Origin: Nitrosomonas marina
Lineage (GTDB): Bacteria > Pseudomonadota > Gammaproteobacteria > Burkholderiales > Nitrosomonadaceae
NCBI RefSeq assembly: GCF_900110145.1
Contig: NZ_FOCP01000003.1
Span: 124,001-188,000, forward strand
Direction of reading: 5' to 3'
DNA length: 64,000 bases
Position numbers and translations under genes: made by a program. Below are positions 9,469 to 49,927 of the stretch, piece after piece. The notes beneath the pieces were generated by a model. That model searched no databases and was not told where the DNA came from. It saw only the letters and a list, made by a program, of their open reading frames with translations. Position 1 is the stretch's first letter, and every line of letters begins with the position of its first letter.

Positions 9469-9470
9469 CT

Positions 9471-20792: not shown

Positions 20793-20829
20793 AAACAAAC
20801 TATCGCTGCATGAATTTAAGGAGCAAGCT

Positions 20830-22335: not shown

Positions 22336-22402
22336 TTCGGGCATCATCACATTTTAGCTGGCAGCATTCGCGATCTATCATTACCAAGCAAAGGATCACA
22401 TC

Positions 22403-25400
22403 TTGTTCGAACGGATATTACAGATATCAATAAATTATCGCGGCCTAGTCATGGTAGCGGTTTTTGCCTTGATCTTACTGGGAGTTTACAGCTATCAAAA
22501 AGTACCTATTGATGCCGTACCGGACATTACCAATGTCCAAGTACAGATCAATACGGAAGCACCCGGTTATTCACCTTTGGAAGCCGAGCAAAGGATCACT
22601 TTTCCAATCGAGACTATCATGATGGGGCTTCCCGATCTCGACTATACGCGTTCAATTTCCCGTTATGGGCTCTCGCAAGTCACGGTAGTTTTCAAAGACG
22701 GAACCGATATTTATTTTGCACGCCAGCTGGTCAGCCAGCGTATACAGGAAGTCAGGAACAGGCTGCCGGTTGGAATCGAGCCTCGCATGGGACCGATCTC
22801 AACCGGCCTGGGTGAGATATTCATGTGGACTGTTGATGCACAAAAAGGTGCAAAAAAACCAGATGGCACCGACTACACTGCAACTGATCTTCGGGAAATC
22901 CAGGACTGGATAATTCGACCTCAGCTACTTACCGTCAAAGGTGTCACGGAAGTTAATTCTGTCGGCGGATACGTCAAGCAGTTTCACGTAACCCCCTACC
23001 CGGAGAAGCTTATTTCCAGGGGCCTGACTCTTAAGGATGTTGTGTCCGCTCTGGCAAAAAACAATTTGAATATCGGCGCCGGTTACATTGAGAAAAGCGG
23101 CGAACAATATTTGGTCAGGGTACCCGGACAAGTCACCAACCTTGCCGAGATCGGCGAAATTATTCTCGATAACCGGCAGGGCATTCCAATCCGTATCAAG
23201 GATGTGGCAGATGTCATTCTCGGCAAAGAGCTGCGTAACGGCGCCGCCACCCAGAACGGCAAAGAGGTTGTGCTCGGGACTGTCCATATGTTAATCGGCG
23301 AAAACAGCCAGATAGTGTCTGAAGCGGCTGCACAGAAATTGCTGGAAATCAACCGCAACCTGCCAGAAGGTATTGTGGCGACACCTGTATACAATCGCAC
23401 CACACTGGTTGACAAAACCATTCAGACTGTCGCATCCAATCTAACAGAAGGCGCTATTCTCGTTATTGTTGTACTGTTTTTATTTCTCGGCAACCTGCGC
23501 GCTGCACTGATAGCCGCGCTGGTGATTCCGTTATCCATGCTCTTCACATTAACCGGCATGGCTGCAAATAACGTCAGCGCCAACCTGATGAGCCTTGGCG
23601 CGCTGGACTTTGGCATCATAGTCGACGGCGCTATCGTTATTATTGAAAACTGCATCAGGCATCTGGCGCAAGAACAGGCGAGACTAAAACGACTTCTGAC
23701 ACTTCCCGAGCGCCTGGCAATTGTTTTTTCGGCCAGCAAAGAAACACGGCGCGCACTGCTGTTCGGTCAAACCATTATCCTGATCGTCTATATTCCTATC
23801 TTTGCCTTGTCAGGGGTAGAAGGAAAAATGTTTCACCCAATGGCCTACACTGTCGTAGCCGCCCTGCTCGGCGCAATCATTCTATCCATTACCTTTGTAC
23901 CCGCAGCAGTTGCCCTGTTTCTGACTGGCGACATACAAGATACGGAAAACAAGACCGTAAAAGGTTTTAAACAGATTTATCTACCAATGCTGCTGTGGGC
24001 ATTGCGCAACAAAGCGCTGACCATAACACTTGCAGTAACGGTTATGATTCTTTCCGCATTACTCGCTACCCGGCTTGGCAGCGAGTTCGTGCCCAGCCTG
24101 AATGAAGGTGATATTGCATTGCACGCTATCCGCATTCCTGGAACCAGTCTGTCAACCGCGATCGAAATGCAGAATGAACTGGAGAAGAAAATCAAATCGT
24201 TCGCCGAAGTTGAAAGGGTTTTTTCAAAAATTGGCACACCAGAAATCGCAACCGATCCTATGCCACCCAGCGTGGCTGACATTTTCATTATTCTGAAAGA
24301 CCAGAGCCAGTGGGAAGGCCCATACAAAACCAAAGACGCGCTTATTGCCGCCATGGAAAAAGCAGTATTCGATGTGCCCGGTAACAATTATGAATTCACG
24401 CAACCGATACAAATGCGGTTTAATGAACTGATTTCAGGCGTTCGCGCCGACGTCGCAGTAAAGATATTTGGTGACGACATGGATATCTTGCATGACGTTG
24501 GCGATAAAATTCTGGCGACCATAGAAACCATTCCGGGGGCTGCTGATGCAAAAATAGAACAGCTAACCGGTCTGCCCATGCTCTCTATTCATATGGATCG
24601 CGCAAAAATGGCACGTTATGGACTAAATGTATCGGATGTTCAGAATATTGTCACTATCGCCATTGGCGGCATGCCTACCGGCCTTATTTACGAGGGCGAC
24701 AGGCGTTTCAATCTCCTGGTACGTTTGCCCGAAGAGTTACGCGAGGATATAGAAGCGCTCAAACGGTTACCCATCGAACTGCCCAGTGCAACATTAAACC
24801 TGCAACCAGATGCGTTGCCCTCACCAGCCTATCTGACACTTGATGACGTTGTAGATTTCGAAATCATAGCAGGTCCGAACCAGATCAGCCGTGAAAATGG
24901 CAAGCGCAGGGTGGTTGTCAGCGCAAATGTCCGCGGCACCGATCTCGGCACTTTTGTACACGCGGCACAGGCACGAATCACAGAAGAAATAAAAATTCCA
25001 CCTGGATACTGGGTTGTCTGGGGCGGTCAATACGAACAACTGGTTTCAGCAACGGAACGTTTAATCATCATTGTACCCATTGCACTCGGCCTTATTTTTA
25101 TTCTACTTTATTTGATGTTTGGAAACCTGCGTGACGGGCTGCTGGTCTTCACTGGCGTACCGTTTGCATTTACAGGCGGCATCTTGGCGCTATGGCTGCG
25201 CGACATTCCATTCTCGATATCTGCGGCTGTTGGTTTTATTGCTTTATCAGGTATCGCTGTATTGAATGGGTTGGTACTGTTAACATTTATTCGCAACTTA
25301 AGAGAAAAAGGTTATACACTGGACGATGCAATTAAAACGGGCGCATTGACACGCCTGCGGCCGGTATTGATGACAGACCTGACCGATGCTATCGGATTTC

Positions 25401-25585
25401 TACCGATGGCACTGGCCATCAGTATTGGCGCAGAAGTACAGCGACCGTTAGCTACTGTCGTCATTGGCGGAACGTTTACATCAACAACGCTAACCATGCT
25501 GGTACTACCAGTATTGTACTATATAGTTTACAATAAAAGCTCGCAACCAACAGAAAATATCGGCAAAAAAGTGAACATGGGTTGA
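22403..25585 (+). CDS. czcA: CzcA-type heavy-metal RND proton antiporter
   Basis: Twelve-helix inner-membrane pump of the HME-RND family. The frame begins with TTG, seven bases after AAAGGA, and is 1060 residues long, the usual size. The fourth membrane helix reads LDFGIIVDGAIVIIEN, placing Asp402, Asp408 and Glu415 at the same numbers as the essential proton-relay residues of Cupriavidus CzcA. The DFG..VDGA pattern is that of the Zn/Co/Cd/Ni branch rather than the Cu/Ag (CusA) branch. A metal cation is therefore likely, but the exact ion cannot be read from sequence. A 10-bp inverted repeat spans its stop codon. Confidence 0.95.
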   Translation: MFERILQISINYRGLVMVAVFALILLGVYSYQKVPIDAVPDITNVQVQINTEAPGYSPLEAEQRITFPIETIMMGLPDLDYTRSISRYGLSQVTVVFKDGTDIYFARQLVSQRIQEVRNRLPVGIEPRMGPISTGLGEIFMWTVDAQKGAKKPDGTDYTATDLREIQDWIIRPQLLTVKGVTEVNSVGGYVKQFHVTPYPEKLISRGLTLKDVVSALAKNNLNIGAGYIEKSGEQYLVRVPGQVTNLAEIGEIILDNRQGIPIRIKDVADVILGKELRNGAATQNGKEVVLGTVHMLIGENSQIVSEAAAQKLLEINRNLPEGIVATPVYNRTTLVDKTIQTVASNLTEGAILVIVVLFLFLGNLRAALIAALVIPLSMLFTLTGMAANNVSANLMSLGALDFGIIVDGAIVIIENCIRHLAQEQARLKRLLTLPERLAIVFSASKETRRALLFGQTIILIVYIPIFALSGVEGKMFHPMAYTVVAALLGAIILSITFVPAAVALFLTGDIQDTENKTVKGFKQIYLPMLLWALRNKALTITLAVTVMILSALLATRLGSEFVPSLNEGDIALHAIRIPGTSLSTAIEMQNELEKKIKSFAEVERVFSKIGTPEIATDPMPPSVADIFIILKDQSQWEGPYKTKDALIAAMEKAVFDVPGNNYEFTQPIQMRFNELISGVRADVAVKIFGDDMDILHDVGDKILATIETIPGAADAKIEQLTGLPMLSIHMDRAKMARYGLNVSDVQNIVTIAIGGMPTGLIYEGDRRFNLLVRLPEELREDIEALKRLPIELPSATLNLQPDALPSPAYLTLDDVVDFEIIAGPNQISRENGKRRVVVSANVRGTDLGTFVHAAQARITEEIKIPPGYWVVWGGQYEQLVSATERLIIIVPIALGLIFILLYLMFGNLRDGLLVFTGVPFAFTGGILALWLRDIPFSISAAVGFIALSGIAVLNGLVLLTFIRNLREKGYTLDDAIKTGALTRLRPVLMTDLTDAIGFLPMALAISIGAEVQRPLATVVIGGTFTSTTLTMLVLPVLYYIVYNKSSQPTENIGKKVNMG

Positions 25586-25623
25586 TAAAGAATGTCGAAA
25601 AATTTGACACCTTTTTATCAACC
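25580..25623. repeat. Hairpin over the czcA stop codon
   Basis: GGTTGATAAA (25580-25589) and its exact reverse complement (25614-25623) enclose a 24-base loop that contains a second short palindrome. There is no T run after it, so it is more likely an mRNA 3'-end stabiliser or weak terminator than a standard rho-independent terminator. Confidence 0.45.
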
Positions 25624-25692: not shown

Positions 25693-25707
25693 TGGCCCGA
25701 TACTTGC
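25693..25707 (+). promoter_or_regulatory. Sigma-54 (-24/-12) type promoter
   Basis: CTGGCCCG-ATAC-TTGCT matches the sigma-54 consensus YTGGCACG-N4-TTGCW with one mismatch, and the GG (25694-25695) and GC (25706-25707) elements have the required 12-base register. Transcription would start near 25719, about 50 bases before the twin-arginine protein gene. Sigma-54 control through PrsK/PrsR is known for exosortase-A-linked protein genes in related bacteria. Confidence 0.6.
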
Positions 25708-25771
25708 TTATTTATTGATAAGACTATATTGTATCCATTGTTGATGAATATACCTATGAGATTTATCAAGC

Positions 25772-26251
25772 ATGACTGAAGAACGATCACACTTACAAAC
25801 TGACACTGCGCAGCAGCCACTTAAAGCGTCCATGAATGACACGCACAAGCGTAATAGAAGGAAATTATTAAAAGGGACAGTGGCGGTTCCGGTTGTTATG
25901 ACGCTATATAGCGGCGCGGCTTTAGCCCGTACCAGTAATATTACGGGAGAAGCGGATTCTATCGAAAATGCCGTTTTCAAAGACACAATCAATGGCCCTC
26001 AATTACTGTGTGTTTTTCCCGACCCAATGCAAACACAAATTCCTGGCGGCCCTTATGATCTCGGTCAGTTTCCTCAGGCGACACTTATTCAAGAGCCTAA
26101 GATTGATCTCACCGCAAGCGCTGAAACAGTTTTAACCAGCAAAATGCAGCAATTGGAGGAATGCCATGCCCGCGGAGGAATCATGATTTCAGCTGTTGCA
26201 TATACTTCGATCATGAGTAAAACGGGTATCAACATCAATCCGACCTGGTAG
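25772..26251 (+). CDS. Small twin-arginine leader protein, unknown
   Basis: A 159-residue protein with a Tat-like leader: KRNRRKLLKG near residues 26-35, then a hydrophobic core (VAVPVVMTLYSGAALA) ending in an Ala-x-Ala type site near residue 51. The remaining roughly 105 residues are hydrophilic, rich in Pro, Thr and Gln, with two Cys (in QLLCVF and EECHARGG), and end GININPTW. I do not recognise the mature domain. A Met at residue 21 (25832) is an equally plausible start; neither has a strong ribosome site. It follows a sigma-54-like promoter and precedes the PqqD/kinase/nucleotidyltransferase trio, so it could be their substrate (inference). A hairpin separates it from the trio. Confidence 0.7.
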   Translation: MTEERSHLQTDTAQQPLKASMNDTHKRNRRKLLKGTVAVPVVMTLYSGAALARTSNITGEADSIENAVFKDTINGPQLLCVFPDPMQTQIPGGPYDLGQFPQATLIQEPKIDLTASAETVLTSKMQQLEECHARGGIMISAVAYTSIMSKTGININPTW

Positions 26252-26349
26252 CAGGCAAAACCTGTTTACACATTCTGCCAATTTGGACTTACTTGAATAT
26301 ACGGCGATATAGTCGACTATAAGGTAGGCAAGTCTTCAGAAAACGCATC

Positions 26350-26384
26350 ATGACCGTATCTTACAGGATTGTAGATACGGTCAT
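26350..26384 (+). terminator. Hairpin after the leader protein gene
   Basis: A perfect 12-bp stem (26350-26361 with 26373-26384) around an 11-base loop, followed by an AT-rich stretch with a short T run. It probably ends or attenuates the transcript of the twin-arginine protein gene before the PqqD-like gene, allowing the two parts to be expressed at different levels. Confidence 0.6.
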
Positions 26385-26519
26385 TTAATTGATTAATTAT
26401 TTTTGTCTGCAACATTCTGCTTCCACAAGCACCTAAGCCGTTTTAACAATTGACGGTATATTGTTCCTTTGATTCAGTCTAATGATAAACTCCAGTTTTT
26501 AGATTGATTCTGCACAAGC

Positions 26520-26831
26520 ATGCACTGGCGAACAAATCATTTCGAAACATTGCTGATCGAAAACTGGAACGAAGAGTATACTGTTTTCCAGCCAGATTCC
26601 GGAAAAACTCACTTTTTAAATCAAATGAGTATGGAAATGCTCATTTACCTTGATCAAAAACCGGCCACACTGGAAGAAATCAGCGCTTATATGGCAGCGC
26701 AGTTTCAGCAACAACCAGATCATAGCTTTCAGCGAAATATAGAAAAGGTGCTTTATCATTTTGACACATTGGGACTAGTCAAAAAATCATTTGTGAGTTC
26801 TTGGCATGGTAGTCAACCAGATTCCATTTGA
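26520..26831 (+). CDS. PqqD-like protein of an HPr-rel-A type system
   Basis: A 103-residue protein with PqqD-like organisation: a winged-helix-like fold containing the stretch VFQPDSGKTHFLNQMSMEML and a helical end with TLEEISAYM. PqqD-like domains bind the leader of a peptide substrate and present it to a modifying enzyme. It overlaps the kinase gene by 26 bases and the kinase overlaps the nucleotidyltransferase, so the three form one translational unit. Together they match what is catalogued as the HPr-rel-A system, whose chemistry is not established as far as I know. The start lacks a strong ribosome site. Confidence 0.75.
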   Translation: MHWRTNHFETLLIENWNEEYTVFQPDSGKTHFLNQMSMEMLIYLDQKPATLEEISAYMAAQFQQQPDHSFQRNIEKVLYHFDTLGLVKKSFVSSWHGSQPDSI

Positions 26832-27714
26832 AGAATTCCGCATGCTAATACGCAGACAAGGACTGAGAGTTGCAATTGGCCCTTTTAATGTATGCATCCA
26901 TACGTCATACAAGCCACTGATTGAACAGCTTTATCTACTCTACAGTCATTACCGGATAGTTCAAGATGAAATCGCCGAATTTCATGTACGCATCGTGACA
27001 GAACGTTCCCTCAGGAATCCATTCAAACGCAATGTTCGTTTTCTGCTGGATGGCCAGTCTCCTTTTGAAAGTTTCCCTCAGGAACAAGCACTTGCAGCAC
27101 TGGAATGGGGCATTAATCTGGCCATAGCAGTCCGGGTCAATCACTTGCTGCTACTACATTCTGCTGTAGTTGAAAAAAACGGTCACGTAATTTTATTTCC
27201 TGCCTGGCCTGGAAGCGGCAAAACAACTTTATGTACAGTTCTGTCTTATCACGGATTTCGTCTGTTCTCTGACGAATTTGGACTCATGGACACTCAGCGG
27301 CAACTTTTTCTTCCGATTCCACGTTTAATGCCGCTTAAAAACGAATCTATAGCCGTCATCCGCAATTACCTGCCCGATATAGTTATGGGCCGGCCCATAC
27401 CCAACACGCAAAAAGGAACCGTTGCGCATGTCCGACCACCAGAAAAAAGTATTTTACTGTCGAAACATACCTGTAAAGCCAGGTGGATAATTTTTCCCAA
27501 ATGGATAGCTGATACATCGGTTAAAATTGAAGCAATTTCCGATGCCGAAGCGTTTATGATGCTGGCAAGCAATGCGTTCAATTATGAAGCACTAGGTGCG
27601 GCTGGGTTTGGCGCAGTTGCCAATCTGATTCGCAGTTGCGATTGTTTTAAACTGGTATATTCTGATTTTGACAGCGTCATGGAAGTTTTGCATCAACTGA
27701 CCAATGAAACTTGA
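26806..27714 (+). CDS. HprK-related kinase A
   Basis: A 302-residue protein related to the C-terminal kinase domain of HPr kinase/phosphorylase. The Walker A loop is at about 134-141 (WPGSGKTT), an HSA motif at 118-120 precedes it, and SDEFGLMD near 155-162 is the likely metal-binding segment. The PTS partner HPr and other PTS genes are absent nearby, so the target is probably not HPr. Comparable HprK-like kinases in some lasso-peptide clusters phosphorylate a peptide, which is the basis for proposing a peptide or protein substrate here. A Met at residue 13 is an alternative start. Confidence 0.8.
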   Translation: MVVNQIPFEEFRMLIRRQGLRVAIGPFNVCIHTSYKPLIEQLYLLYSHYRIVQDEIAEFHVRIVTERSLRNPFKRNVRFLLDGQSPFESFPQEQALAALEWGINLAIAVRVNHLLLLHSAVVEKNGHVILFPAWPGSGKTTLCTVLSYHGFRLFSDEFGLMDTQRQLFLPIPRLMPLKNESIAVIRNYLPDIVMGRPIPNTQKGTVAHVRPPEKSILLSKHTCKARWIIFPKWIADTSVKIEAISDAEAFMMLASNAFNYEALGAAGFGAVANLIRSCDCFKLVYSDFDSVMEVLHQLTNET

Positions 27715-28810
27715 TCTTCCCCTGCATTGTCAGATTTTACTCAACGGGTTAACCGACCCGGCCTGTCTCAGACGCTATTGTGACTCGGATTGGGAACTGC
27801 TGGTTCGGATGGCAAGGCGTGTAAAGCTACTCGGACGATTGGGATTACTTGTAAAGGAATATGGTATCTGGGATCAGGTTCCACCAAGAATAACTACTCA
27901 AATGGCATCGGCACTTGTTCAGGTTGAAAAACTTCAACAGCTTAACCGATGGGAATTAAACAGAGTTCTTTGGGCTTTAAATGACTTAGACACTTCGATT
28001 ATCGCGCTAAAGGGTGTCGCATACACTTTAGCAGAAATACCATACGCATCGGGACGTTTATCCATCGATCTCGATTTACTGGTCCCCCAATCGGATCTGG
28101 CTGACATTGAGTCATTACTTATGGTCAAAGGCTGGAAGCACCGCCCGCTTTCAGCCTACGATGAGCACTATTACCGCGTTTGGAGCCATGAGATTCCGCC
28201 GCTGGTACATGCCGAACGAGAAACTGAGGTCGATATTCACCATACACTGATACCCCTGACCAGTCGGCTAAAAATCAACCCAGAATTGCTGTTCGACACT
28301 GCCATTCCAGTTAATAACTCAACAATCAGACTGTTGAATCCGGTTGACATGGTCATTCATTGCGCAATAAATCTGTTTCAGAATAATGAATTAGCTAATG
28401 ATCTCAGGGATTTGCTAGACTTGCATGATTTAATGGTTTTTTTCAGTGCACGGACGATTGATTTCTGGACACAGCTAATTGATCGCTCCAACCAGCTAAA
28501 ATTAAGCAGGGCTGTGTTTTATAGTCTGCATTTCAGTCAACTGATATTCAAAACACCTGTACCAAAAAAAGTCCCTGTTCGTCTTCATGCGAGACCCGGA
28601 AGGCTGAAACTGTGGATAATGAACCGGCTGGTGCCATTAGCATTATTTCCGCAACACCCGGACAAACCGATGCTGTCCGCATCACTTGCACGACTGCTAA
28701 TGTACCTGCGCAGCCATTTGATTCGTATGCCGCTGTATATTTTAGTGCCACATCTGGCCTACAAATCAGTTCGCATGATACGATTTAAAAGCAGAAAAAG
28801 TCGTTCTTAG
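27704..28810 (+). CDS. Nucleotidyltransferase-fold protein of the HPr-rel-A type system
   Basis: A 368-residue protein of the NTP_transf_5 kind. The core motif is LKG near 102-104 followed by GRLSIDLDLLV, where Asp122 and Asp124 are the probable metal ligands; a third acidic site lies in EVDIHHTL around residue 186. The substrate is unknown. It overlaps the kinase gene by 11 bases and ends the module. In paeninodin-type lasso-peptide clusters, a related nucleotidyltransferase also accompanies an HprK-like kinase, so the pairing is meaningful. The next gene is convergent. Confidence 0.8.
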   Translation: MKLDLPLHCQILLNGLTDPACLRRYCDSDWELLVRMARRVKLLGRLGLLVKEYGIWDQVPPRITTQMASALVQVEKLQQLNRWELNRVLWALNDLDTSIIALKGVAYTLAEIPYASGRLSIDLDLLVPQSDLADIESLLMVKGWKHRPLSAYDEHYYRVWSHEIPPLVHAERETEVDIHHTLIPLTSRLKINPELLFDTAIPVNNSTIRLLNPVDMVIHCAINLFQNNELANDLRDLLDLHDLMVFFSARTIDFWTQLIDRSNQLKLSRAVFYSLHFSQLIFKTPVPKKVPVRLHARPGRLKLWIMNRLVPLALFPQHPDKPMLSASLARLLMYLRSHLIRMPLYILVPHLAYKSVRMIRFKSRKSRS

Positions 28811-39985: not shown

Positions 39986-41272
39986 TTGAGAGATTTATTG
40001 ATTTTCCTGATCGTTTTTGGATTGCTGCCCTATGTATTGAAAAGGCCGCACTGGGGAATCTATCTTTGGTCATGGATCGGATATATGAACCCTCACCGAT
40101 TAGGATGGAGCTTTGCATTCTATTTCCCATTTGCACAGATTATCGGGTTGGTAACCCTGATTTCTTTTTTTGTATCATCAAAGAAACTGAAATTTTTCTG
40201 GTCGCCAACAATGGGATGGCTGATATTTTTCAATATTTGGATGCTGATATCGACTCTATTTGCCATGTACCCGGATGTTGCATGGTCTCAATGGGAAAAA
40301 ATAATAAAAATACAGTTAGTTATATTCTTGACTCTGTTTGCATTGGTCGACAGGGAAAAAATTCACATTTTTGTCTGGATCATCGTTATATCTATCGGTT
40401 TCTATGGCTTTAAAGGCGGTATTTTTACTTTGACAACAGGCGGCGGTTCGCATGTACTGGGCCCGCGGGGTGGCTTTATAGCTGGCAATACTGAGATCGG
40501 CCTGGCTCTCGTCATGATCCTGCCGCTGGTCTGGTATTTATTTTTACATTCTCAAAACAAATGGATACGTTATGGATTAGTGCTATCTATGTTCCTTATT
40601 GCAATCGGAATACTCGGAACACAGTCCCGCGGTGCATTTCTGGCGATTTCTGCCGTTTCAGCTTTCTTGTGGCTTAAAAGCTCACGCAAGATGGTAATCT
40701 TTATTGCATTGCTGATGCTGTCCCCGTTTTTTTACATGGTTATGCCTCAATCCTGGCACGATCGTATGGCAACCATACAAAATTATGAAGAGGATGGATC
40801 AGCCATGTCACGTTTGAAAGCGTGGGAGTTCGGATATGCCATGGCACTTGACCGACCTTTCACCGGTGGCGGCTATGAAAGTCATACAGTTGAAAATTAT
40901 GAGCGCTATGTTCCGCATCAGATAGAGCAGGGCATTGCCACATTTCACGATTATCATAGTATATATTTCGAGATTCTGGCAGAACATGGTTTTGTTGGTT
41001 TGTTTATTTTTTTGATGTTGTTTGTTCAATATTGGCGGACTGCGAACAAAATCATTAGAACCTGCAAGGATACCGGTCAAAACAAATGGGCACTTGATCT
41101 GGCCGCAATGCTGCAGGTTTCATTTATTGGATATGCTGTCGGAGGCGCTTTTTTGGGACTGGCTTATTTCGATCTTTTTTACCACTACCTGGCCATTTTG
41201 GTTATGACGTTAAAAATCCTGGAAGATGAAAAAAACGACCCGGCACCTACAACAGTACCCGCAACGAAATAA
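39986..41272 (+). CDS. Wzy/O-antigen-ligase-like protein, exosortase-A-associated type
   Basis: A 428-residue polytopic membrane protein with about ten to twelve hydrophobic segments. The opening (LPYVLKRPHWGIYLWSW, then NPHRLGWSFA) and the periplasmic loop with TGGGYESHT and FHDYHSIYFEIL match proteins annotated as the probable O-glycosylation ligase of exosortase-A loci. It would polymerise a lipid-linked polysaccharide repeat or transfer it. The start is a TTG-type or nearby codon; GAGGAGGC lies just upstream. It is the first gene of the operon, 149 bases before the amidotransferase. Confidence 0.85.
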   Translation: MRDLLIFLIVFGLLPYVLKRPHWGIYLWSWIGYMNPHRLGWSFAFYFPFAQIIGLVTLISFFVSSKKLKFFWSPTMGWLIFFNIWMLISTLFAMYPDVAWSQWEKIIKIQLVIFLTLFALVDREKIHIFVWIIVISIGFYGFKGGIFTLTTGGGSHVLGPRGGFIAGNTEIGLALVMILPLVWYLFLHSQNKWIRYGLVLSMFLIAIGILGTQSRGAFLAISAVSAFLWLKSSRKMVIFIALLMLSPFFYMVMPQSWHDRMATIQNYEEDGSAMSRLKAWEFGYAMALDRPFTGGGYESHTVENYERYVPHQIEQGIATFHDYHSIYFEILAEHGFVGLFIFLMLFVQYWRTANKIIRTCKDTGQNKWALDLAAMLQVSFIGYAVGGAFLGLAYFDLFYHYLAILVMTLKILEDEKNDPAPTTVPATK

Positions 41273-41421
41273 CATGAAGCACCCGTCTAGCCAAATTTAT
41301 TGCCTCTGGCGTAAAAGCCTGCATTAAGCTGTGTACAGACTTATCCAGGTGTTATAGATACAATATAAACAAACATTCAACTTTTTTCTTCTTACGATAA
41401 TACAACTCTGAGTCCATATCT

Positions 41422-43353
41422 ATGTGTGGAATTTACGGCGGCATTGCGTTACGTACCAACACTCAACTTGATGTCTCATTACTGAATCGTATGGGGCGTG
41501 TTACAGCCCATCGCGGACCTGACGATGAGGGTGTCTTTGTCACCGACCACGTTGCTATTGGCATGCGCCGCCTGTCAATTATCGACTTGTCCGGCGGACA
41601 CCAACCCTTATTTAACGAAAACAAGCGTATTGCAGCTGTATGTAACGGTGAAATTTATAATTTCCAAACGCTTAGAGAACAACTAATCAATCAAGGGCAT
41701 CGCTTCTCCACGCATTCCGACTCGGAAGTTGTAATTCATCTCTACGAACAATACGGGGAAGCGTTTCTGCACCATTTAAACGGCATGTATGCACTCGCGC
41801 TGTGGGATGCAGATAAAAAAGTTATGATAATTGCCCGTGACAGACTTGGCATAAAACCCGTGTATTATTACCTGGACGACAATGTCCTTTTGTTCTCAAC
41901 GGAAGCAAAAGCGCTGTTTCAGTTTCGGGGGTTGACACCAAAGCTGGACACTATTGCTACCGGGTTATATCTTCAACTAGGTTATGTCCCGGCACCACAT
42001 TCTATTTTTGAAGGGATAAAAAAACTACCGGTCGCTTCATATATCAAGGCGACTCAGGGCAGTTTCACAATAAATGAATACTGGCGGCCAGATTACAACC
42101 AGCGCACCTACTCTGTCAGTCAATGGAAAAGCGCGATTCGCGAACAATTGGAAGCGTCTGTCGCGTCGCAAATGGTCAGTGACGTACCGATAGGCGCGTT
42201 TCTCTCCGGTGGTATCGATTCCAGTCTGGTTGTCGGTTTGATGGCAAAGCATACTTCACAGCCGGTGAAAACCTATGCCATTGGTTTTGACATGAATGGA
42301 CCGGCACAAATTTACAACGAACTTCCCTATGCCAGACAGGTTTCCGATTTATTCGGCACAGAACACCACGAAATCATCGTTAAGCCCGACATCGTTCATT
42401 TATTGCCCAAGCTGTTATGGCACATGGATGAACCGGTTGCAGACACCGCGTTTATCACTACCTTCCTGGTTTCCGAATTCGCCAGAAAAGATGTGACGGT
42501 TATTCTTAGTGGCGTAGGGGGCGATGAATTATTTGGCGGTTATCGGCGATACCAGGGAGAATATTATAATCAGTATTACCAAAAAATACCGTCATGGGCA
42601 CGAAAAAATGTAATTCAGCCACTGGCGCGCTTGCTGCCAAGTGATCGCCACTCAAAATGGCTAAACTACAGCCGTCTTGCAAAGAGTTTTTTGCTGACAG
42701 CCGAGTTGCCTTTTGAGAAACGGTATCAGTCCTATATTGAAATCGCAGACGAGCAGTTACGCAACCAGTTACTGGCTGACATGATTGACTGGGATGCAAA
42801 CAACATCGTTTCAGATGCCTTTCATAACTGCGCTGATATTCCTGCGTTGCACAAACTCTTTGAAGTCGACCGGGTAACGCAGTTGCCTGACGATCTATTG
42901 ATGCTGACAGACAAAATGACTATGGCAACCTCACTGGAGTGCAGAGTACCATTGCTGGATCATGAACTGGTCGAACTAGCGTGCAGCATGCCACCCGAAC
43001 TCAAAATAAAAGGCGGAGAGCTTAAATATGTTTTAAAAGCATGTTTATCCGACTTGCTTCCCAGAGATATTCTATATCGTAAAAAGCGCGGTTTTGGAGC
43101 ACCGATGGGTGCCTGGATAAAAAAGGAATTGCTACCGTTATTGCAGACACTGTTAAGTCCCGACGTCATCAACGCACGTGGAATTTTTAACGCGGCAGTG
43201 GTGCAGTCATTGATAAAAGAACATCTCGACCAAAGGCATGATCACACAGACATTCTGATCGGTTTGTTGAATTTTGAAGTCTGGTCAAGATTGATGCTTG
43301 ACCAAACCCGACCAGAAGCTTTAGAAAACGAATTAAAGCAATTGATCCAATGA
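41422..43353 (+). CDS. Asparagine-synthase-like amidotransferase of an exosortase-A type locus
   Basis: A 643-residue glutamine-hydrolysing amidotransferase. Cys2 is the glutaminase nucleophile (MCGIYGG), with HRGPDDEG near 30-37 and CNGEIYN near 74-80 in the N-terminal domain. The synthetase domain has the PP-loop SGGIDSS at 262-268. In exosortase-A-linked polysaccharide loci this family probably amidates a sugar or uronic acid rather than free Asp. Its stop overlaps the next gene by four bases (ATGA). Confidence 0.9.
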   Translation: MCGIYGGIALRTNTQLDVSLLNRMGRVTAHRGPDDEGVFVTDHVAIGMRRLSIIDLSGGHQPLFNENKRIAAVCNGEIYNFQTLREQLINQGHRFSTHSDSEVVIHLYEQYGEAFLHHLNGMYALALWDADKKVMIIARDRLGIKPVYYYLDDNVLLFSTEAKALFQFRGLTPKLDTIATGLYLQLGYVPAPHSIFEGIKKLPVASYIKATQGSFTINEYWRPDYNQRTYSVSQWKSAIREQLEASVASQMVSDVPIGAFLSGGIDSSLVVGLMAKHTSQPVKTYAIGFDMNGPAQIYNELPYARQVSDLFGTEHHEIIVKPDIVHLLPKLLWHMDEPVADTAFITTFLVSEFARKDVTVILSGVGGDELFGGYRRYQGEYYNQYYQKIPSWARKNVIQPLARLLPSDRHSKWLNYSRLAKSFLLTAELPFEKRYQSYIEIADEQLRNQLLADMIDWDANNIVSDAFHNCADIPALHKLFEVDRVTQLPDDLLMLTDKMTMATSLECRVPLLDHELVELACSMPPELKIKGGELKYVLKACLSDLLPRDILYRKKRGFGAPMGAWIKKELLPLLQTLLSPDVINARGIFNAAVVQSLIKEHLDQRHDHTDILIGLLNFEVWSRLMLDQTRPEALENELKQLIQ

Positions 43354-44540
43354 AGATTTTATACATTTGCCATCGCTTTCCATATCCACCCAAGCGGGGC
43401 GGCAAGATCCGCCCATTCAATATGATCAAATACCTGTCTCAGCAGGGACACCAGGTATGGGTCGCATCGCTGGCAAGATCTCAACAGGAATTCGATGAGT
43501 GCTCTGGCATAAAGGACTACTGCCATCAATACACAATTGGCCTGGTTAATGACACGGTACAGTGGAGCCGAATGATTATAAATCTTCCAACTCCAACACC
43601 CTCTTCACTGGCCTATTTTTTTAGTCGAAAGCTAAAAAAACAAATCAATACATGGTTATCTGAAGAAAGTTTCGATTTGATCTTTGTACACTGCTCGTCC
43701 GTCGCCCAATACGTTGAACATGTCCGACAAATTCCAAAAATACTCGATTATGGTGATATGGACTCCCAAAAATGGCTGACTTACAGGAGTTTCAAACCTT
43801 TTCCTTTCAACCTGGGTTATTGGTGGGAAGGTACAAAAATGAAATTTTCCGAAAAAAACCTTGCACGAAAGTTTGACTTGACAACCTGCACAACAAAAGC
43901 TGAACTGGATACGCTTAACAGCTATGGTACCGCTTTAAAAACCGACTGGTTTCCCAACGGAGTGGATGCCGATTTTTTTCAGCCTGACGGTTCCATATAC
44001 GACCCGCACAGCATTTCGTTCATTGGCCGAATGGATTATTTCCCCAACCAACAATGCATGCTTGAGTTCTGTCACCAGACCTTGCCGCTAATCCAGGAAA
44101 AAATACCGGACACAAAGCTCTATATTGTAGGTGCTGAACCTCCCAAAAAAATAAAATTTTTAGAAAAAATAAACGGTGTAGTCGTAACCGGCAGCGTTAA
44201 GGATGTGCGTCCTTATATCTTGAAAACCGCAGCAATGGTTGCACCCCTGAATATCGCCCGAGGAACACAAAATAAAATCTTGGAGGCAATGGCAATGGGT
44301 GTCCCTGTTGTATCAAGCAAGCTGGCGGCAGGCGGTATTGACGCAATACCAGATGAACATTTTTTAACTGCAGACACGCCTGCAGAGTATGCCCAAAAAC
44401 TGATCAATCTTATGGAATCAGCGCCGTTAAGAGAAAAGTATGCCAAGGCTGGCCGGGAACGAATGCTGACCAATCATGCCTGGCAAAAAAGTATGAAAAA
44501 AATGGAATCGCTTATTTTGAATTGCGTAAACAGTAAATAG
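43350..44540 (+). CDS. Family 4-type glycosyltransferase (exosortase-A-associated sugar transferase 1)
   Basis: A 396-residue GT-B enzyme. The start MKILYICHRFPYPPKRGGKI and the segment DYGDMDSQKW are typical of the sugar transferase named for PEP-CTERM/exosortase-A loci. The donor-binding C-terminal half contains NGVDADFF, GRMDYFPNQ and the LEAMAMGVPVV region. It probably adds one sugar to the lipid-linked repeat. Translation is coupled to the amidotransferase by the four-base overlap. Confidence 0.88.
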   Translation: MKILYICHRFPYPPKRGGKIRPFNMIKYLSQQGHQVWVASLARSQQEFDECSGIKDYCHQYTIGLVNDTVQWSRMIINLPTPTPSSLAYFFSRKLKKQINTWLSEESFDLIFVHCSSVAQYVEHVRQIPKILDYGDMDSQKWLTYRSFKPFPFNLGYWWEGTKMKFSEKNLARKFDLTTCTTKAELDTLNSYGTALKTDWFPNGVDADFFQPDGSIYDPHSISFIGRMDYFPNQQCMLEFCHQTLPLIQEKIPDTKLYIVGAEPPKKIKFLEKINGVVVTGSVKDVRPYILKTAAMVAPLNIARGTQNKILEAMAMGVPVVSSKLAAGGIDAIPDEHFLTADTPAEYAQKLINLMESAPLREKYAKAGRERMLTNHAWQKSMKKMESLILNCVNSK

Positions 44541-44631
44541 CGATCCATATAATAAATTTACAGTAAAACAAACTGGCAACAATCTAGTTGCAAAGCTTCC
44601 GGAATTTGAATTCAAAAAATTAGGAGTTGGA

Positions 44632-45951
44632 ATGGATATCAGCGTATTTGGTTTGGGTTATGTTGGTGCAGTATCTCTAGCCTGTCTTGCTAAAGAAGGT
44701 CACAATGTCACAGGGGTGGATATAGACAAAACCAAGCTGGAGCTGATCCAATCGGGAAAATCCCCAGTCATTGAAACCGGCATGCCGGAGCTCGTTCAGG
44801 AGGTCGTGGCCTCAGGTCGGGTAAAGCTTTCCGAATCGACTCAGGATGCTGTATCGCAGACCCAGTTGTCTTTTGTATGTGTTGGGACACCGTCTCAATC
44901 AAATGGCAACCAGGATCAAACAGCAGTATTGCGATTAACCGAACAATTAGGTGAAGCGCTAAAATCAAAAACCGATCATCATATCATCGTTTTTCGCTCG
45001 ACCCTTCTTCCAGGCACAGTCATCAACATATTAATACCACTACTGGAAAAGTTTTCAGGCAAATCAAACGGCATTGATTTTGACGTATGCTTTCAACCCG
45101 AGTTTTTGCGTGAGGGATCATCCATCAAGGACTACTATAAGCCGCCATTTACGGTAGTCGGTCTCTCTTCTGACAAACCGAAAGCAGTTTTTGACAAATT
45201 ATTCTCAGGACTGCCGGCCGAGATCATTTACACAGACATAGCCACAGCAGAAACGATGAAATATTTCTGCAATATCTTTCATGCACTCAAAATCACCTTT
45301 GCCAATGAAGTTGCTCGTCTGTGCGAATCGATACAGGTCGACCCGCACGCGGTTATGAACCTGATCTGCAAAGATAAACAGTTGAACATCTCCAGCGCCT
45401 ACATGAAACCCGGTTTCTCGTTTGGCGGCAGTTGTCTTCCCAAAGATCTAAGAGCAATTAATTACATTGCCAAACAGAACGATGTCGACATCCCCATGCT
45501 CAGAGGTGTATTGCCTTCCAATCGAGCACATCTGGATTGTGCTTTACAGAAAATCACACAAACCGGATTAAAAAAAATCGGTTTTGTAGGGCTCAGCTTT
45601 AAATCCGGAACAGATGATCTGCGCGAAAGTCCGCTTGTGGATTTAGCCGAAAAACTGATTGGAAAGGGTTTTTCGCTGAAAATTTATGATCCTGAGGTCA
45701 ATATTTCGAAATTAATTGGTGCAAATAAATATTTTATCGAGACCAGCATTCCGCATATCGGATCATTGATGACAACAGACTATGAAAACCTGCTTTCCAC
45801 AAGTGAAATCATAGTGGTCGGCATTTCGGATCCACATCTGACAACAACACTAATTGAATCTTCCCGTAAAGAACAAATTATCTTAGACTTAGTCAATATG
45901 AAGGAAAGGGATAAACTTCGTGCAACCTATATAGGAATGTGCTGGAAATGA
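44632..45951 (+). CDS. Nucleotide-sugar 6-dehydrogenase, AlgD-like (GDP-mannose type)
   Basis: NAD-dependent four-electron dehydrogenase that makes a nucleotide-linked uronic acid. The 439 residues align by eye with AlgD along their length: GLGYVGAVSLACLAKEGHNV at the start, VGTPS near 84-88, FRSTLLPGTV near 121-130, and Cys268 in GGSCLPKDLRA, the same residue number as the catalytic Cys of AlgD. LSFKSGTDDLRESPLVDLAE is the conserved C-terminal segment. This favours GDP-mannose, giving GDP-mannuronate, over UDP-glucose, but substrate proof is lacking. AGGAG lies five bases upstream. Confidence 0.85.
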   Translation: MDISVFGLGYVGAVSLACLAKEGHNVTGVDIDKTKLELIQSGKSPVIETGMPELVQEVVASGRVKLSESTQDAVSQTQLSFVCVGTPSQSNGNQDQTAVLRLTEQLGEALKSKTDHHIIVFRSTLLPGTVINILIPLLEKFSGKSNGIDFDVCFQPEFLREGSSIKDYYKPPFTVVGLSSDKPKAVFDKLFSGLPAEIIYTDIATAETMKYFCNIFHALKITFANEVARLCESIQVDPHAVMNLICKDKQLNISSAYMKPGFSFGGSCLPKDLRAINYIAKQNDVDIPMLRGVLPSNRAHLDCALQKITQTGLKKIGFVGLSFKSGTDDLRESPLVDLAEKLIGKGFSLKIYDPEVNISKLIGANKYFIETSIPHIGSLMTTDYENLLSTSEIIVVGISDPHLTTTLIESSRKEQIILDLVNMKERDKLRATYIGMCWK

Positions 45952-46940
45952 TCAAAAGACGGTATTTTCTGCAGTTGGGTTTGTTGATTCTGGGCATAGC
46001 AACCAGTTGCGTCTATTTATTCACTATAGCAACCCCCTCGGAAGAAGCAGCACGAATACGTAATTCCCTCGTGCACCAACCTGGTCAACTCGAAGATTTT
46101 AACTGGGGGCCGTCGGCTTTTCCGGCAGATTTCAAGAATGAAACTCATACTCCGCCGCCATATTTTCAAGAATTTGTTGACTCTCTGTCCACAAGCCGAA
46201 CCATGTCCGAAATGGATAAGTTCCTGCTTGCTGCACAAAAAATCCTTGAGCGTGAGCGCTACGGTGGGCCGATCCAGTCCAATACAGAGGATGCTTTAAA
46301 GAAATTGCAGGATGAAGGTACTGGGTGGTGTTCGGACTACACCCAGGTTTTTAATGGTATCGCGCATACACTCGGTATTCCTGTCAGGGAATGGGGAATG
46401 TCCTTCGATCGTTATAACGGAAACGGACATGCCTTTAATGAGATTTATGACCAGAAACTTGACAAGTGGGTCTTTATTGACACCTATAACGCTTTTTATG
46501 TCACCAATCGTCATGGAGAACCGCTTTCTGTTTTAGAGTTTCGGCAGCTACTCAACACTGACCGACCCCAGTTGATCATCCAGAAAATTAATCAAATACA
46601 ATTCGGCTTTCAGAATGATTCGGTTGCACTGGATTATTATCAGCGCGGCATGCCCCAGTTATTCCTGATATGGGCAAATGATGTGTTCAGTTATGATTCC
46701 AATCCACTTATTCAGATAACGGGATCCTTTTCCAGAATGGCCGAACAGATAACAGGTATAATATTGGGCATTAATCAGGAGATCCGGTTATATCCTGACC
46801 CCAACAGCGCTCAACAGCAAAAAGAGTTGTTATCACTTAAACACACCGTCATCTTTATTATTTTCTTCAACGTTATATCAGGCATTCTTTTCTTAATTAT
46901 TCTAGTCCGAATGCTCAATAATCGCACAAGCCATGGATAA
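45948..46940 (+). CDS. Membrane-anchored transglutaminase-like protein
   Basis: A 330-residue protein with a hydrophobic segment at each end (about 8-27 and 297-322). The region between, predicted periplasmic, holds a transglutaminase-like Cys-His-Asp triad: Cys128 in GTGWCSDYTQ, His161 in GNGHAFNEIYD and Asp178 in WVFIDTYNAF. Proteins with this fold act as cysteine peptidases, cross-linkers or amidases. In a polysaccharide operon it may process a cell-surface protein or the glycan, which is inference. The ATG overlaps the dehydrogenase stop (ATGA); a GTG three codons earlier is an alternative. It overlaps the next gene by eight bases. Confidence 0.8.
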   Translation: MIKRRYFLQLGLLILGIATSCVYLFTIATPSEEAARIRNSLVHQPGQLEDFNWGPSAFPADFKNETHTPPPYFQEFVDSLSTSRTMSEMDKFLLAAQKILERERYGGPIQSNTEDALKKLQDEGTGWCSDYTQVFNGIAHTLGIPVREWGMSFDRYNGNGHAFNEIYDQKLDKWVFIDTYNAFYVTNRHGEPLSVLEFRQLLNTDRPQLIIQKINQIQFGFQNDSVALDYYQRGMPQLFLIWANDVFSYDSNPLIQITGSFSRMAEQITGIILGINQEIRLYPDPNSAQQQKELLSLKHTVIFIIFFNVISGILFLIILVRMLNNRTSHG

Positions 46941-48153
46941 AGAAATCAAAGTACTGCACGTGCTTGATCATTCTTTGCCCCTGCACAGCGGTTATACCTT
47001 TCGCACCCGTGCAATTTTGTCAATTCAGCACCAGATGGGTATACAAACGGCGTTAGTCACCGGCAGCAAACATTCTGAAAACAGTCGATGTATTGATGCG
47101 ATCGAAACTGTCGACGGATTGTCATTTTATCGGACTTATCCTTCATTTCTAAACAGGCTGCCGTTGCTCAATCAGCTTGATGTTGTACTGACATTAATAA
47201 AACGGATTGAGTTGGTCTTACCTATTGAGCAACCCGATGTCATCCATGCTCACTCTCCTTGCCTTAATGGCCTGGCTGCTTTACACATCGGAAAGAAATA
47301 TAATATTCCCGTACTATACGAAATGCGCGCATCATGGGAAGATGCCGCAGTCAGTCATGGCACATGCCAGGAAAATGATTTGCGCTATAAATTATCCAGA
47401 ACACTTGAAACTTATGTACTCAAACGTGCAAACCATATCACTACTATCTGTCAAGGCCTCAAAAAAGACATTCAGGTACGCGGCGTCTCCCCTGAAAAGA
47501 TTACGGTCATACCCAACGCCGTCAATACAGAGAAATTTTATCCTATTCAGGAAAAAGATTCGCTTCTGTGCCGTCAGTTAAACCTGGGCAACAAAAAAGT
47601 ACTTGGGTTTATCGGTTCATTCTATGAATACGAAGGACTGGAGTTACTGATACAAGCAGTTGCTGTCTTAAAAGATGAATGTCCGGATTTCCACGTTCTA
47701 CTGGTAGGCGGTGGCCAGGCTGAGTCCGCATTAAAAACAATGGTTTCCCGGCTTGACATTTCTGACCGCGTTTCTTTTACAGGCAGAGTCAATCATGATG
47801 AGGTTATGAAATATTACAGCATAATCGATTTACTCATTTATCCCAGACTGCCCATGCGGTTGACTGATCTGGTTACACCATTGAAACCATTGGAAGCCAT
47901 GGCAATGGGAAAACCATGCATTGCTTCTGATGTTGGCGGTCATCAGGAATTGATTATTGACCATGAAGATGGTTTATTATTCAAGGCCGGCGATTTGGAC
48001 AATCTGATTACACTGTTAAGAACCGCTTATTTTCAATCAGACTTTGCCACATTGATCAAGAACGGGATCGAAAAAGTGCGACACCAACGCAATTGGGCAA
48101 TCTGTGTCGCACCTTACCAGGCTATTTATCAATCACTGGCTGGACAACATTAA
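46933..48153 (+). CDS. Glycosyltransferase, exosortase-A-associated type (Daro_2409-like)
   Basis: A 406-residue GT-B enzyme. Its start, VLHVLDHSLPLHSGYTFRTR, and VDGLSFYRTYP are hallmarks of the exosortase-A-associated group. The N-terminal acceptor domain is followed by the GT4-type donor domain with IPNAVNTEKF, GFIGSFYEYEGLE, and PLEAMAMGKPCIASDVGG, and a conserved Glu motif. It presumably extends the repeat unit begun by the earlier transferase. Confidence 0.88.
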   Translation: MDKEIKVLHVLDHSLPLHSGYTFRTRAILSIQHQMGIQTALVTGSKHSENSRCIDAIETVDGLSFYRTYPSFLNRLPLLNQLDVVLTLIKRIELVLPIEQPDVIHAHSPCLNGLAALHIGKKYNIPVLYEMRASWEDAAVSHGTCQENDLRYKLSRTLETYVLKRANHITTICQGLKKDIQVRGVSPEKITVIPNAVNTEKFYPIQEKDSLLCRQLNLGNKKVLGFIGSFYEYEGLELLIQAVAVLKDECPDFHVLLVGGGQAESALKTMVSRLDISDRVSFTGRVNHDEVMKYYSIIDLLIYPRLPMRLTDLVTPLKPLEAMAMGKPCIASDVGGHQELIIDHEDGLLFKAGDLDNLITLLRTAYFQSDFATLIKNGIEKVRHQRNWAICVAPYQAIYQSLAGQH

Positions 48154-48180
48154 ACATCAATCTCACTAAACAAATTAGAT

Positions 48181-48942
48181 GTGAACAAACCACGCTCATT
48201 TGAAAAGCTATGGCGAAAAAGATTTGAAAATTTTGCCGAGCAGGCAGAGGATGATGCAGGTATTGCCGGATGGTCACCTACAGGTCTGGATGCACGTCTG
48301 CGCAAATTCAAGGAAATATGGCACAGTAACAGTCATTTTACGAATAAAAAAAAATGGCTTGATGCCGGCTGTGGAGCCGGTACTTATTCCAGATTTATCG
48401 TACAACAGGGCGGAGAAGTTGTTGGTTTGGATTATTCCTTACCATCTTTACAGAAAGCCAGACTAAAAGGAGAATCGTCAATTGTATGGTGCGTAGCGGA
48501 TATCAATAAAATACCGCTAAAACCGGGTTATTTCGATGGTGCGATTTGTTTTGGTGTAATACAGGCTCTGAATGATTCAAACCATGCAGTTAGCAGTCTG
48601 TCCCATGCGGTCAAACCCGGCGGATACATCTGTATAGATGCTCTCAATAGCCGGTGTCTTCCCCATATTTGGGAACAAATTAGCCGCCGGATTCAAAATA
48701 AACCGATGCATTTACGCTATGAATCAGTGGAAAATCTGCGTCATTTAATGAAAAAAAACAGTTTAGTTAATGTCCAATTACATTGGTTACCCATATTACC
48801 GGCCCGCTGGTACCGTTATCAGTGGATCATTGAAACGCGTGTTGCCAGATGGTTTTTTAACTATTTCCCTTTCTTGGGACAATTACTCAGCCATTCGTTT
48901 ATCATAAGCGGACAGCGCCAGCAGGATATACACAGTGCCTAG
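48181..48942 (+). CDS. Class I SAM-dependent methyltransferase
   Basis: A 253-residue protein, beginning at a GTG. It shows the SAM-binding motif LDAGCGAGTYSRF near residues 60-72, the acidic strand VVGLDYS, and the post-I segment VADINKIPLKPGYFDGAICFG. Together with the sugar genes around it, it probably methylates a sugar or its precursor. Its stop overlaps the deacetylase GTG by eight bases. A run of nine A sits within NKKKWLDAG. Confidence 0.8.
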   Translation: MNKPRSFEKLWRKRFENFAEQAEDDAGIAGWSPTGLDARLRKFKEIWHSNSHFTNKKKWLDAGCGAGTYSRFIVQQGGEVVGLDYSLPSLQKARLKGESSIVWCVADINKIPLKPGYFDGAICFGVIQALNDSNHAVSSLSHAVKPGGYICIDALNSRCLPHIWEQISRRIQNKPMHLRYESVENLRHLMKKNSLVNVQLHWLPILPARWYRYQWIIETRVARWFFNYFPFLGQLLSHSFIISGQRQQDIHSA

Positions 48943-49927
48943 TTTTTTAGCCCAAATGGAAACGACCTTTGTCAATACGTTCGCCTCGTTGCTTTCTCCA
49001 GCAGGAAGTCGTGCGCGGTTATCCATTGTCCTCTATCACCGGGTTCCACTGAAACCCGATGAACTGTTTCCTGGCCAGGAAGATGCACATAGCTTTGAAA
49101 CACAAATTTGTCATTTATCCCGTCATTTCAATGTACTTCCGTTACATGAGGCCATTCAAAGATTGCAGGACAAGACACTCCCGAGCCGGGCGGCCTGTAT
49201 TACTTTTGATGATGGCTACGCAAATAACGTCGAAGTTGCTTTGCCTATTCTTCAAAAATACAAGGTAGCTGCAACTTTTTTTATTGCAGCCGGTTTTATT
49301 GACGGCAGTATGATGTGGAATGACAAACTCATTGAACTCTTACGTCGTGCATCTGGCTCTGTTTTGAATTTAGATAAAATCGGACTGGGTGAGTACGAAA
49401 TCGGCACACTGGAGCAACGCCGGCAAACTGTATTAACACTGATTGAAACGTTCAAGTACATGCCGTATGCAGAGAGATCTGAACAATTAGATCGATTATG
49501 CAATTTAATACCCGAAACACTGCCAGGAAATGTTATGATGAATCCTGATCAGATCAGACAGCTACATGGCGCCGGTATGGAGATCGGCGGACATACCGTT
49601 ACCCATCCGATTCTGACGCGTCTGGAAACTTCTGCAGCATACGCCGAAATTGAACACGGCAAGACCATATTAGAAAATATCCTACAGGCGCCTGTTCGTT
49701 ATTTCGCATATCCAAATGGCAAACCTGGTCGGGATTATTTAACCGAACATGTTGACATGCTTAAAAGAATCGGCTTTGATGCAGCTGTATCAACCGCCTG
49801 GGGAACCGCAACCACAAGTACAGATATTTATCAGCTACCGAGATTTACACCCTGGAATATCAACCGCAATCGGTTCTTATTACAGATGATGCAAAACATG
49901 TTCAGATCAGTGCAGACCGTATCTTAA
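48935..49927 (+). CDS. Polysaccharide deacetylase (NodB domain)
   Basis: A 330-residue carbohydrate esterase family 4 type protein. The catalytic-base motif TFDDGY is at residues 90-95 and the metal-binding HTVTH motif lies about 130 residues later (GGHTVTHPIL). AAGFIDGSMMWND and RFFAYPNGKPG type segments (here RYFAYPNGKPG) fit the family. It would remove N- or O-acetyl groups from the exopolysaccharide. There is no clear signal peptide, so the site of action is uncertain. The start is GTG; a Met at residue 8 is possible. Confidence 0.88.
   Translation: MPSFLAQMETTFVNTFASLLSPAGSRARLSIVLYHRVPLKPDELFPGQEDAHSFETQICHLSRHFNVLPLHEAIQRLQDKTLPSRAACITFDDGYANNVEVALPILQKYKVAATFFIAAGFIDGSMMWNDKLIELLRRASGSVLNLDKIGLGEYEIGTLEQRRQTVLTLIETFKYMPYAERSEQLDRLCNLIPETLPGNVMMNPDQIRQLHGAGMEIGGHTVTHPILTRLETSAAYAEIEHGKTILENILQAPVRYFAYPNGKPGRDYLTEHVDMLKRIGFDAAVSTAWGTATTSTDIYQLPRFTPWNINRNRFLLQMMQNMFRSVQTVS

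Follow-up and report, generated by a model that had tools for sequence, protein, structure and literature searches.

A four-gene locus in Nitrosomonas marina

Within a 64,000-nucleotide stretch of the Nitrosomonas marina genome (contig NZ_FOCP01000003.1, positions 124,001 to 188,000; hereafter, the window), four genes on one strand encode a small protein with a twin-arginine translocation (Tat)-like signal, hereafter the leader protein, and a trio consisting of a PqqD-like peptide-binding protein, an HprK-related kinase, and a nucleotidyltransferase (Table 1). A sequence-only reading of this DNA had described the trio as overlapping genes of these three families, preceded by a small Tat-leader gene. 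The coordinates agree: the PqqD-like and kinase genes overlap by 26 bp and the kinase and nucleotidyltransferase genes by 11 bp, all three products score over the cut-offs of their family models, and the leader gene is present, its putative twin arginine (R29 R30) invariant in an alignment of 36 rows.

Table 1. Features of the locus and its context, in window coordinates.
Feature	Position	Strand	Basis
Motif 1, TGTCGAAAAATTTGACA	25593..25609	+	probable PrsR activator binding site, by likeness to sites preceding sigma-54 sites upstream of leaders
-24/-12 (sigma-54) promoter element, TGGCCCGATACTTGC	25693..25707	+	chance-level alone; conserved upstream of leaders
Tat-leader protein gene, 159 aa, candidate substrate	25772..26251	+	RRKLLKG...VVMTLYSGAALA signal; 36-row alignment
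Hairpin in leader-to-PqqD gap (268 bp)	26350..26384	+	best 42-nt hairpin, -19.4 kcal/mol
PqqD-like (RRE-like) peptide-binding protein gene, TIGR04353	26520..26831	+	57.7 bits, cut-off 35
HprK-related kinase A gene, TIGR04352	26806..27714	+	341.7 bits, cut-off 200; P-loop at 27199-27228
NTP_transf_5 nucleotidyltransferase gene, PF14907	27704..28810	+	166.2 bits, cut-off 31.2
XrtA/PEP-CTERM-associated exopolysaccharide genes (context)	39986..49927	+	TIGR03097, TIGR03087, TIGR04063 over cut-off; TIGR03108 below cut-off

No Pfam or NCBIfam family matches the leader protein over cut-off, and the same holds in Pfam for all eight leaders scanned. Those of its close relatives that carry an organism name are mostly from Nitrosomonas. 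With its twin arginine, hydrophobic stretch, and AxA-like site, it is a predicted Tat substrate. Besides R29 and R30, the alignment of window-type leaders (27 of whose rows came from a whole-protein search; P0008 was omitted, its record starting after the twin arginine) has invariant T44, L45, S47, S55, N56, C80, C131, S140, and S146. Across 89 aligned leaders, the T-L-x-S motif of the signal is kept at 90%, 85%, and 89% per position, and conservation of the twin arginine is partly a product of how the set was selected. The mature parts vary, with C..SPSG..SGN.S plus a second Cys being common; mean column identity is 18% in the leader alignment (A2), against 56% in the kinase alignment (A1). 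Called leader open reading frames (ORFs) are 126–291 aa long, plus one over-long ORF of 396 aa. A structure model of the window leader is confident across the predicted mature part (block means 78–92, residues 61–159). The sequence ends GININPTW and lacks a PEP-CTERM tail (C-terminal Pro-Glu-Pro, hydrophobic, and basic). Some ORFs of more than 1000 aa (L175, L176) also contain the 'SPGYWKNH...LN' sequence seen as the mature part in many leaders.

The leader protein is a near-constant partner of the trio

We assembled 111 loci (L001–L111), comprising 31 from one genome collection and the best 80 of 182 confirmed from another. They include the window's own copy (L001) and same-leader pairs (L003/L039, L004/L053, L008/L036, L027/L091) that are probably the same organism drawn from both collections; the record titles of the second set name beta-, gamma-, and alphaproteobacteria, Magnetococcales, Malonomonas, and Phycisphaeraceae. 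In 110 of 112 systems the kinase has a PqqD-like ORF next to it, and in 102 of 112 a nucleotidyltransferase.

In 109 of the 111 loci the kinase has a leader gene nearby (105 found by profile and four by the leader search), and, judged by sequence, the leader is a near-constant partner of the trio. The suggestion in the sequence-only reading that the leader is a candidate substrate, which presupposed that homologues of the trio neighbor leader genes, withstands this comparison. Into the leader profile went genus leaders and those of 77 of the 105 loci that it later found; the other 28, L001 among them, contributed no leader of their own. Profile-found leaders lie upstream of the kinase on the same strand in 102 of 105 cases, 19–686 bp away (median 303.5). 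In three loci (L052, L104, L106) the leader is downstream of the kinase within 2 kb, once on the other strand, and in four short loci (L015, L023, L029, L030) it is 1.2–1.3 kb downstream. At L106 (5689–7107), two differing leader proteins stand in tandem downstream of one trio. The two loci without a leader are L043, which is a contig start, and L060, a Phycisphaeraceae locus in which an IS1-type transposase ORF (8816–9655) occupies the expected leader position.

An automatic Tat rule picked a candidate upstream of the kinase in 82 of 112 systems, and it picked 74 of 1646 control ORFs from other parts of the loci; by eye, four of its picks (L078, L101, L106, L107) were the wrong ORF, and these were dropped, with L001, before the first promoter scoring. 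The distance from leader to PqqD-like ORF has a median of 17.5 bp (68 distinct leaders); the window's 268-bp gap is unusual. The hairpin in that gap is probably incidental, because other loci of the genus that were read have no equally stable hairpin at the same place.

Co-inheritance with exosortase A and PrsR

Among 61 genomes of the genus, the kinase, the leader, and exosortase A (XrtA) occur in the same 18 and in none of the remaining 43 (Fisher p 8e-16, treating genomes as independent). Eighteen have a kinase over cut-off; the window leader protein, used alone in this search and hence independently of the leader profile, has matches in 18, each at most 0.65 kb from the kinase on the same strand; and XrtA is over cut-off in 17, to which is added G314, where the gene is in two pieces below cut-off (C16:19081–19849) and kinase and leader are retained. 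Exosortase-like matches of any score occur in 47 of the 61 genomes, below cut-off in many of the other genomes. The sequence-only reading had named co-occurrence of the enzyme families and the leader protein as one check, and kinase and leader do co-occur; the tie to XrtA was absent from it.

The pattern extends to 300 genomes of the order, in which kinase, XrtA, and the regulator PrsR are over cut-off in 50, 73, and 71, respectively. Within the 50 kinase genomes, XrtA is found in 47 (p 3e-32) and PrsR in 46 (p 4e-31), p values that ignore relatedness; the presence lists behind all these comparisons were transcribed by hand. The leader profile matches 45 of the 300 genomes, 43 of which are kinase genomes; in the other two (G108 and G184) the match is limited to a mature-type domain inside ORFs of more than 1000 aa, one of which was read. 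The host genome itself encodes PrsR (G000:C23, 736.7 bits, cut-off 502.6), and its XrtA is on a different contig from the window.

A PrsR-type promoter upstream of leader genes

A -24/-12 promoter had been proposed for the leader gene. The site is present, is conserved upstream of leaders, and resembles those of PEP-CTERM genes, but taken alone it is at chance level (1 found versus 0.94 expected in the window). According to Haft 2006 (PMC1569441), proteobacterial PEP-CTERM genes are preceded by a motif 1 of 17 nt that has TTTACA at its end, then by a spacer of 63 nt on average (32–92) and a sigma-54 motif 2, and PrsR is the inferred activator at these promoters. The window's motif 1 ends TTGACA, one base off, and its 83-nt gap to the sigma-54 site lies within that range. 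Motif 1 alone is likewise not significant (3 window matches with at most one mismatch versus 2.8 expected); for the pair, searched with a pattern written to include the window copy, there is a single occurrence in the window and none in 100 shuffles.

TGGC-N7-TTGC occurs upstream of leaders in 26 of 85 regions, versus 1.1 expected and 1 antisense, in a set that kept repeats and lacked ten genus leaders (L128–L137). After identical leaders were merged and eight of those ten added (L132 and L136 are still missing), a weighted sigma-54 score of at least 13 was reached upstream of 47 of 89 leaders, versus 1.5 in shuffles and 0 antisense. From the 89 regions we took the 70 with a sigma-54 score of at least 12 and enough upstream sequence, and searched the 100 nt upstream of each site for TGTAAA-N5-TTTACA. 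Motif 1 is present at 9 or more of 12 bases in 56 of the 70, versus 1 of 70 coding controls, with a mean best score of 9.0 versus 7.3 in shuffles; single-site shuffle p values of these 56 run from 0.000 to 0.27, the significance being that of the set and not of each site. The sites read TGTCGR-N5-TTTACA; 55 of the 56 carry C at position 4, which was not part of the query. Their distance from the sigma-54 site is 82 nt on average (standard deviation 13), above the mean in Haft 2006. The window's -24/-12 site gains weight because it belongs to this conserved set and is paired with motif 1.

Genome-wide, the combined pattern has seven sites, with 0 in a reversed control. Four precede ORFs with PEP-CTERM tails as judged by eye (L138, L142, L143, L144), and the other three precede the leader, an ORF of 316 aa that carries a transglycosylase SLT domain and Sel1 repeats (L141, 1787–2737), and a short ORF only (L140). 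It is possible that L141 and L140, on contig 42 of the same genome, are further members of a PrsR-type regulon. On these motifs, the leader promoter fits the PrsR/sigma-54 promoter of PEP-CTERM genes.

The enzymes of the trio

The trio's enzymes look active, because their catalytic residues are conserved in the aligned rows, which in both alignments include the window protein twice plus repeats. The kinase residues H118, G136, G138, K139, T141, D156, and E157 are conserved in 113 of 113 rows, in keeping with the intact P-loop claimed earlier; the loss of ATPase-critical residues that, by the sequence-only reading, would weaken the module idea is not seen. In the nucleotidyltransferase, K103, G104, R118, D122, D124, D177, H179, and H180 stand at 98–100% in 98 rows; D122, D124, and D177, at 99–100%, supply the DxD and third acidic residue expected of the superfamily. 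The kinase profile matched 6681 protein clusters at E of 0.001 or less among 7999 scored, some of which may be other P-loop kinases; the best 120 were inspected.

Comparison with known systems

The PqqD-like and kinase genes are the same gene pair as the HPr-rel-A system of the NCBI model names (TIGR04352, HprK-related kinase A; TIGR04353, PqqD family peptide chaperone), both being over cut-off here. Those names give no substrate. What the present analysis adds is a Tat-leader partner, a PrsR/sigma-54-type promoter, and co-inheritance with XrtA. In the literature searched, which took in few subscription papers and no NCBIfam entry texts, there was no paper on the function of HPr-rel-A or on HprK-related kinases, none that brings PqqD, an HprK-type kinase, or a nucleotidyltransferase together with exosortase/PEP-CTERM, and none that pairs PqqD with HprK; part of the above may be recorded in those other sources.

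With the XrtA/PEP-CTERM PrsK/PrsR/PrsT regulon (Haft 2006, available parts), the window system has in common the bipartite promoter type; it is co-inherited with XrtA and often neighbors XrtA, PrsR, PrsK, and PrsT. Unlike PEP-CTERM proteins, the leader lacks the PEP-CTERM tail and has a Tat-like signal. HPr, PqqD, and nucleotidyltransferase did not turn up when Haft 2006 was searched for these terms.

A second comparison, made already in the sequence-only reading, is with lasso peptides of the paeninodin type. In the accessible text of PMC9266682, the pseudomycoidin kinase PsmK phosphorylates the terminal Ser, and the attachment of one or two hexoses to this phospho-Ser requires PsmN, whose annotation is nucleotidyltransferase; in paeninodin and pseudomycoidin tailoring (PadeK, PsmK, PsmN), kinase and nucleotidyltransferase act on the precursor, and a B1-type peptide-binding protein is present in such clusters. 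Lasso kinases have a common His-Lys-Asp-Asp motif (same source, in part), which the window kinase's His-Lys-Asp-Glu resembles. The likeness in tailoring is an analogy, and the locus is not a lasso-peptide cluster: lasso precursors are short with a C-terminal Ser, whereas the window leader is long and ends in Trp, and neither a lasso cyclase nor a leader peptidase lies beside the window trio. An asparagine-synthase-like protein about 13 kb from the trio scores 218 bits with the lasso cyclase model (cut-off 525) and 560 with the XrtA amidotransferase model (cut-off 817). The SynChlorMet cassette (ScmC, ScmD) has a similar PqqD-like and HprK-like pair of weak similarity, its models matching below cut-off (24.4 bits for the window PqqD-like protein, cut-off 100; 19.9 for the kinase, cut-off 125).

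Gene neighborhoods

In the second locus set, 19 gene clusters recur in at least 8 of 80 loci. These are single-linkage clusters with one representative identified each, and the counts for PrsR- and PrsT-like clusters may include other family members. By representative they comprise PrsT (23 loci), PrsR (15), an XrtA-type export protein (12), PrsK (11), a TIGR03016 outer-membrane protein (11), TIGR03013 (9), TIGR03006 (9), TIGR03007 (8), an ABC-transporter ATPase (10, half on the same strand), a PrmC-like methyltransferase (8), and a histidine kinase (8). A trypsin-like peptidase family (representative L094, 7367–8167) recurs in 14 loci, some 2.6 kb ahead of the kinase and in 12 of the 14 on its strand. 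Two clusters (L098, 11 loci; L066, 9 loci) had no Pfam match of the representative, and the remaining ones are the trio, the leader, and overlapping frames. Among the 16 of 19 clusters that were either scanned or made up of genes of the system itself or overlapping frames, no lasso-type cyclase was recognized.

In the window itself, an efflux set of the resistance-nodulation-division (RND) type lies immediately upstream of the leader (19239–25585), with an AcrB-type pump (PF00873) and a CusB/HlyD-type fusion protein (PF16576); the ORF at 19239–20792, for which no model was run, reads like the outer-membrane partner of such a pump. The polysaccharide genes farther downstream encode a ligase-like protein (TIGR03097), two glycosyltransferases (TIGR03087 and TIGR04063), and an asparagine-synthase-like amidotransferase.

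A proposed accessory of the exosortase A system

From the co-inheritance of leader, kinase, and XrtA, and from the PrsR-type promoter shared with PEP-CTERM-tailed ORFs, we consider it reasonably probable that the four genes are an accessory of the exosortase A/PEP-CTERM exopolysaccharide system in which the trio modifies the leader protein before Tat export. PrsK and PrsR, with sigma-54, would switch on the leader gene along with the PEP-CTERM genes, and the leader protein would be synthesized with its twin-arginine signal. In the cytosol, the PqqD-like protein may bind the precursor, with the conserved signal region as the probable contact, and present it to the HprK-like kinase, which would phosphorylate a conserved Ser or Thr (candidates in the window leader are S55, S140, and S146). 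The nucleotidyltransferase might then add a nucleotidyl or sugar-phosphate group to the phosphorylated residue, and the modified leader would be exported by Tat to the envelope or matrix, where it may have a role. Phosphorylation followed by nucleotidylation or glycosylation is the simplest reading by analogy with pseudomycoidin (PMC9266682, in part), since a His-Lys-Asp-Glu kinase, a nucleotidyltransferase, and a PqqD-like binder adjoin a leader-bearing protein.

This proposal rests on sequence comparison, with modification of the leader being what we infer, and several observations weigh against it. The leaders are so diverse that no single phosphorylation site is common to all types. XrtA is present without the kinase in 26 of the 73 XrtA genomes of the order, kinase genomes G005, G135, and G137 lack XrtA over cut-off, and G005, G092, G115, and G137 lack PrsR over cut-off. 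The leader profile finds nothing in seven kinase genomes, among them G092, which does carry a leader (L031), so divergence is one reason for such misses. The kinase-family profile matches solved HprK weakly (E 0.002, residues 118–176, the His, P-loop, and Asp region), and the HprK domain of Pfam (PF07475) gave no match to the window kinase, although it is listed among the precomputed domains of one relative (P0149). The trypsin-like peptidase recurs near the system and could process the leader protein. Finally, adjacency and co-inheritance also fit a leader that is a partner, and not a substrate.

That last point has a specific form, to which we assign a real but minor chance: the leader would be a partner or sensor, and the trio would modify some other molecule, be it a PEP-CTERM protein, a sugar carrier, or a small molecule, which the leader, once exported, would stabilize or report on. 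Wide variation among leaders beside a conserved kinase, together with a promoter type common to four PEP-CTERM-tailed ORFs, would suit such an arrangement, but a PqqD-like peptide binder adjoining a leader-bearing protein favors a direct substrate, and persistence of the leader in nearly all loci despite its changing mature part is expected if the signal region is what is recognized. That the trio makes a small product akin to a ribosomally synthesized and post-translationally modified peptide (RiPP), with a core cleaved from the leader, is quite unlikely. The combination of PqqD-like protein, kinase, and nucleotidyltransferase mirrors lasso-peptide tailoring (PMC9266682, in part), the SynChlorMet models match below cut-off, and the trypsin-like peptidase lies mostly upstream on the same strand; a modified protein is nevertheless likelier, because the mature part is predicted to be folded and no cyclase was recognized in the clusters covered, and the lengths of the leader ORFs and their Tat-like signal also tell against a peptide product.

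Regulatory phosphorylation alone strikes us as very improbable; in that scheme, reversible phosphorylation of the precursor by the kinase would control its export through Tat, and the nucleotidyltransferase would reset or lock the switch. HprK, whose substrate is HPr, is a known bifunctional kinase/phosphorylase, and the conserved T-L-x-S motif lies in the signal itself, but the data give no pointer to reversal, at which no test was aimed.

Modification of the leader before export, the reading we favor, also admits an unlikely extension: the trio might build a phospho-sugar or nucleotidyl primer on a Ser or Thr of the Tat-exported protein, which XrtA-linked machinery would extend or capture, so that the leader protein would covalently anchor or cap the exopolysaccharide. 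If true, this would constitute a post-translational branch of the exosortase system. A link between PEP-CTERM proteins and floc formation has been described for activated-sludge bacteria (PMC9850573, PMC9012009; available parts). With the associations described here, a widespread, apparently uncharacterized enzyme set gains a candidate substrate, a candidate regulator, and a candidate parent system.

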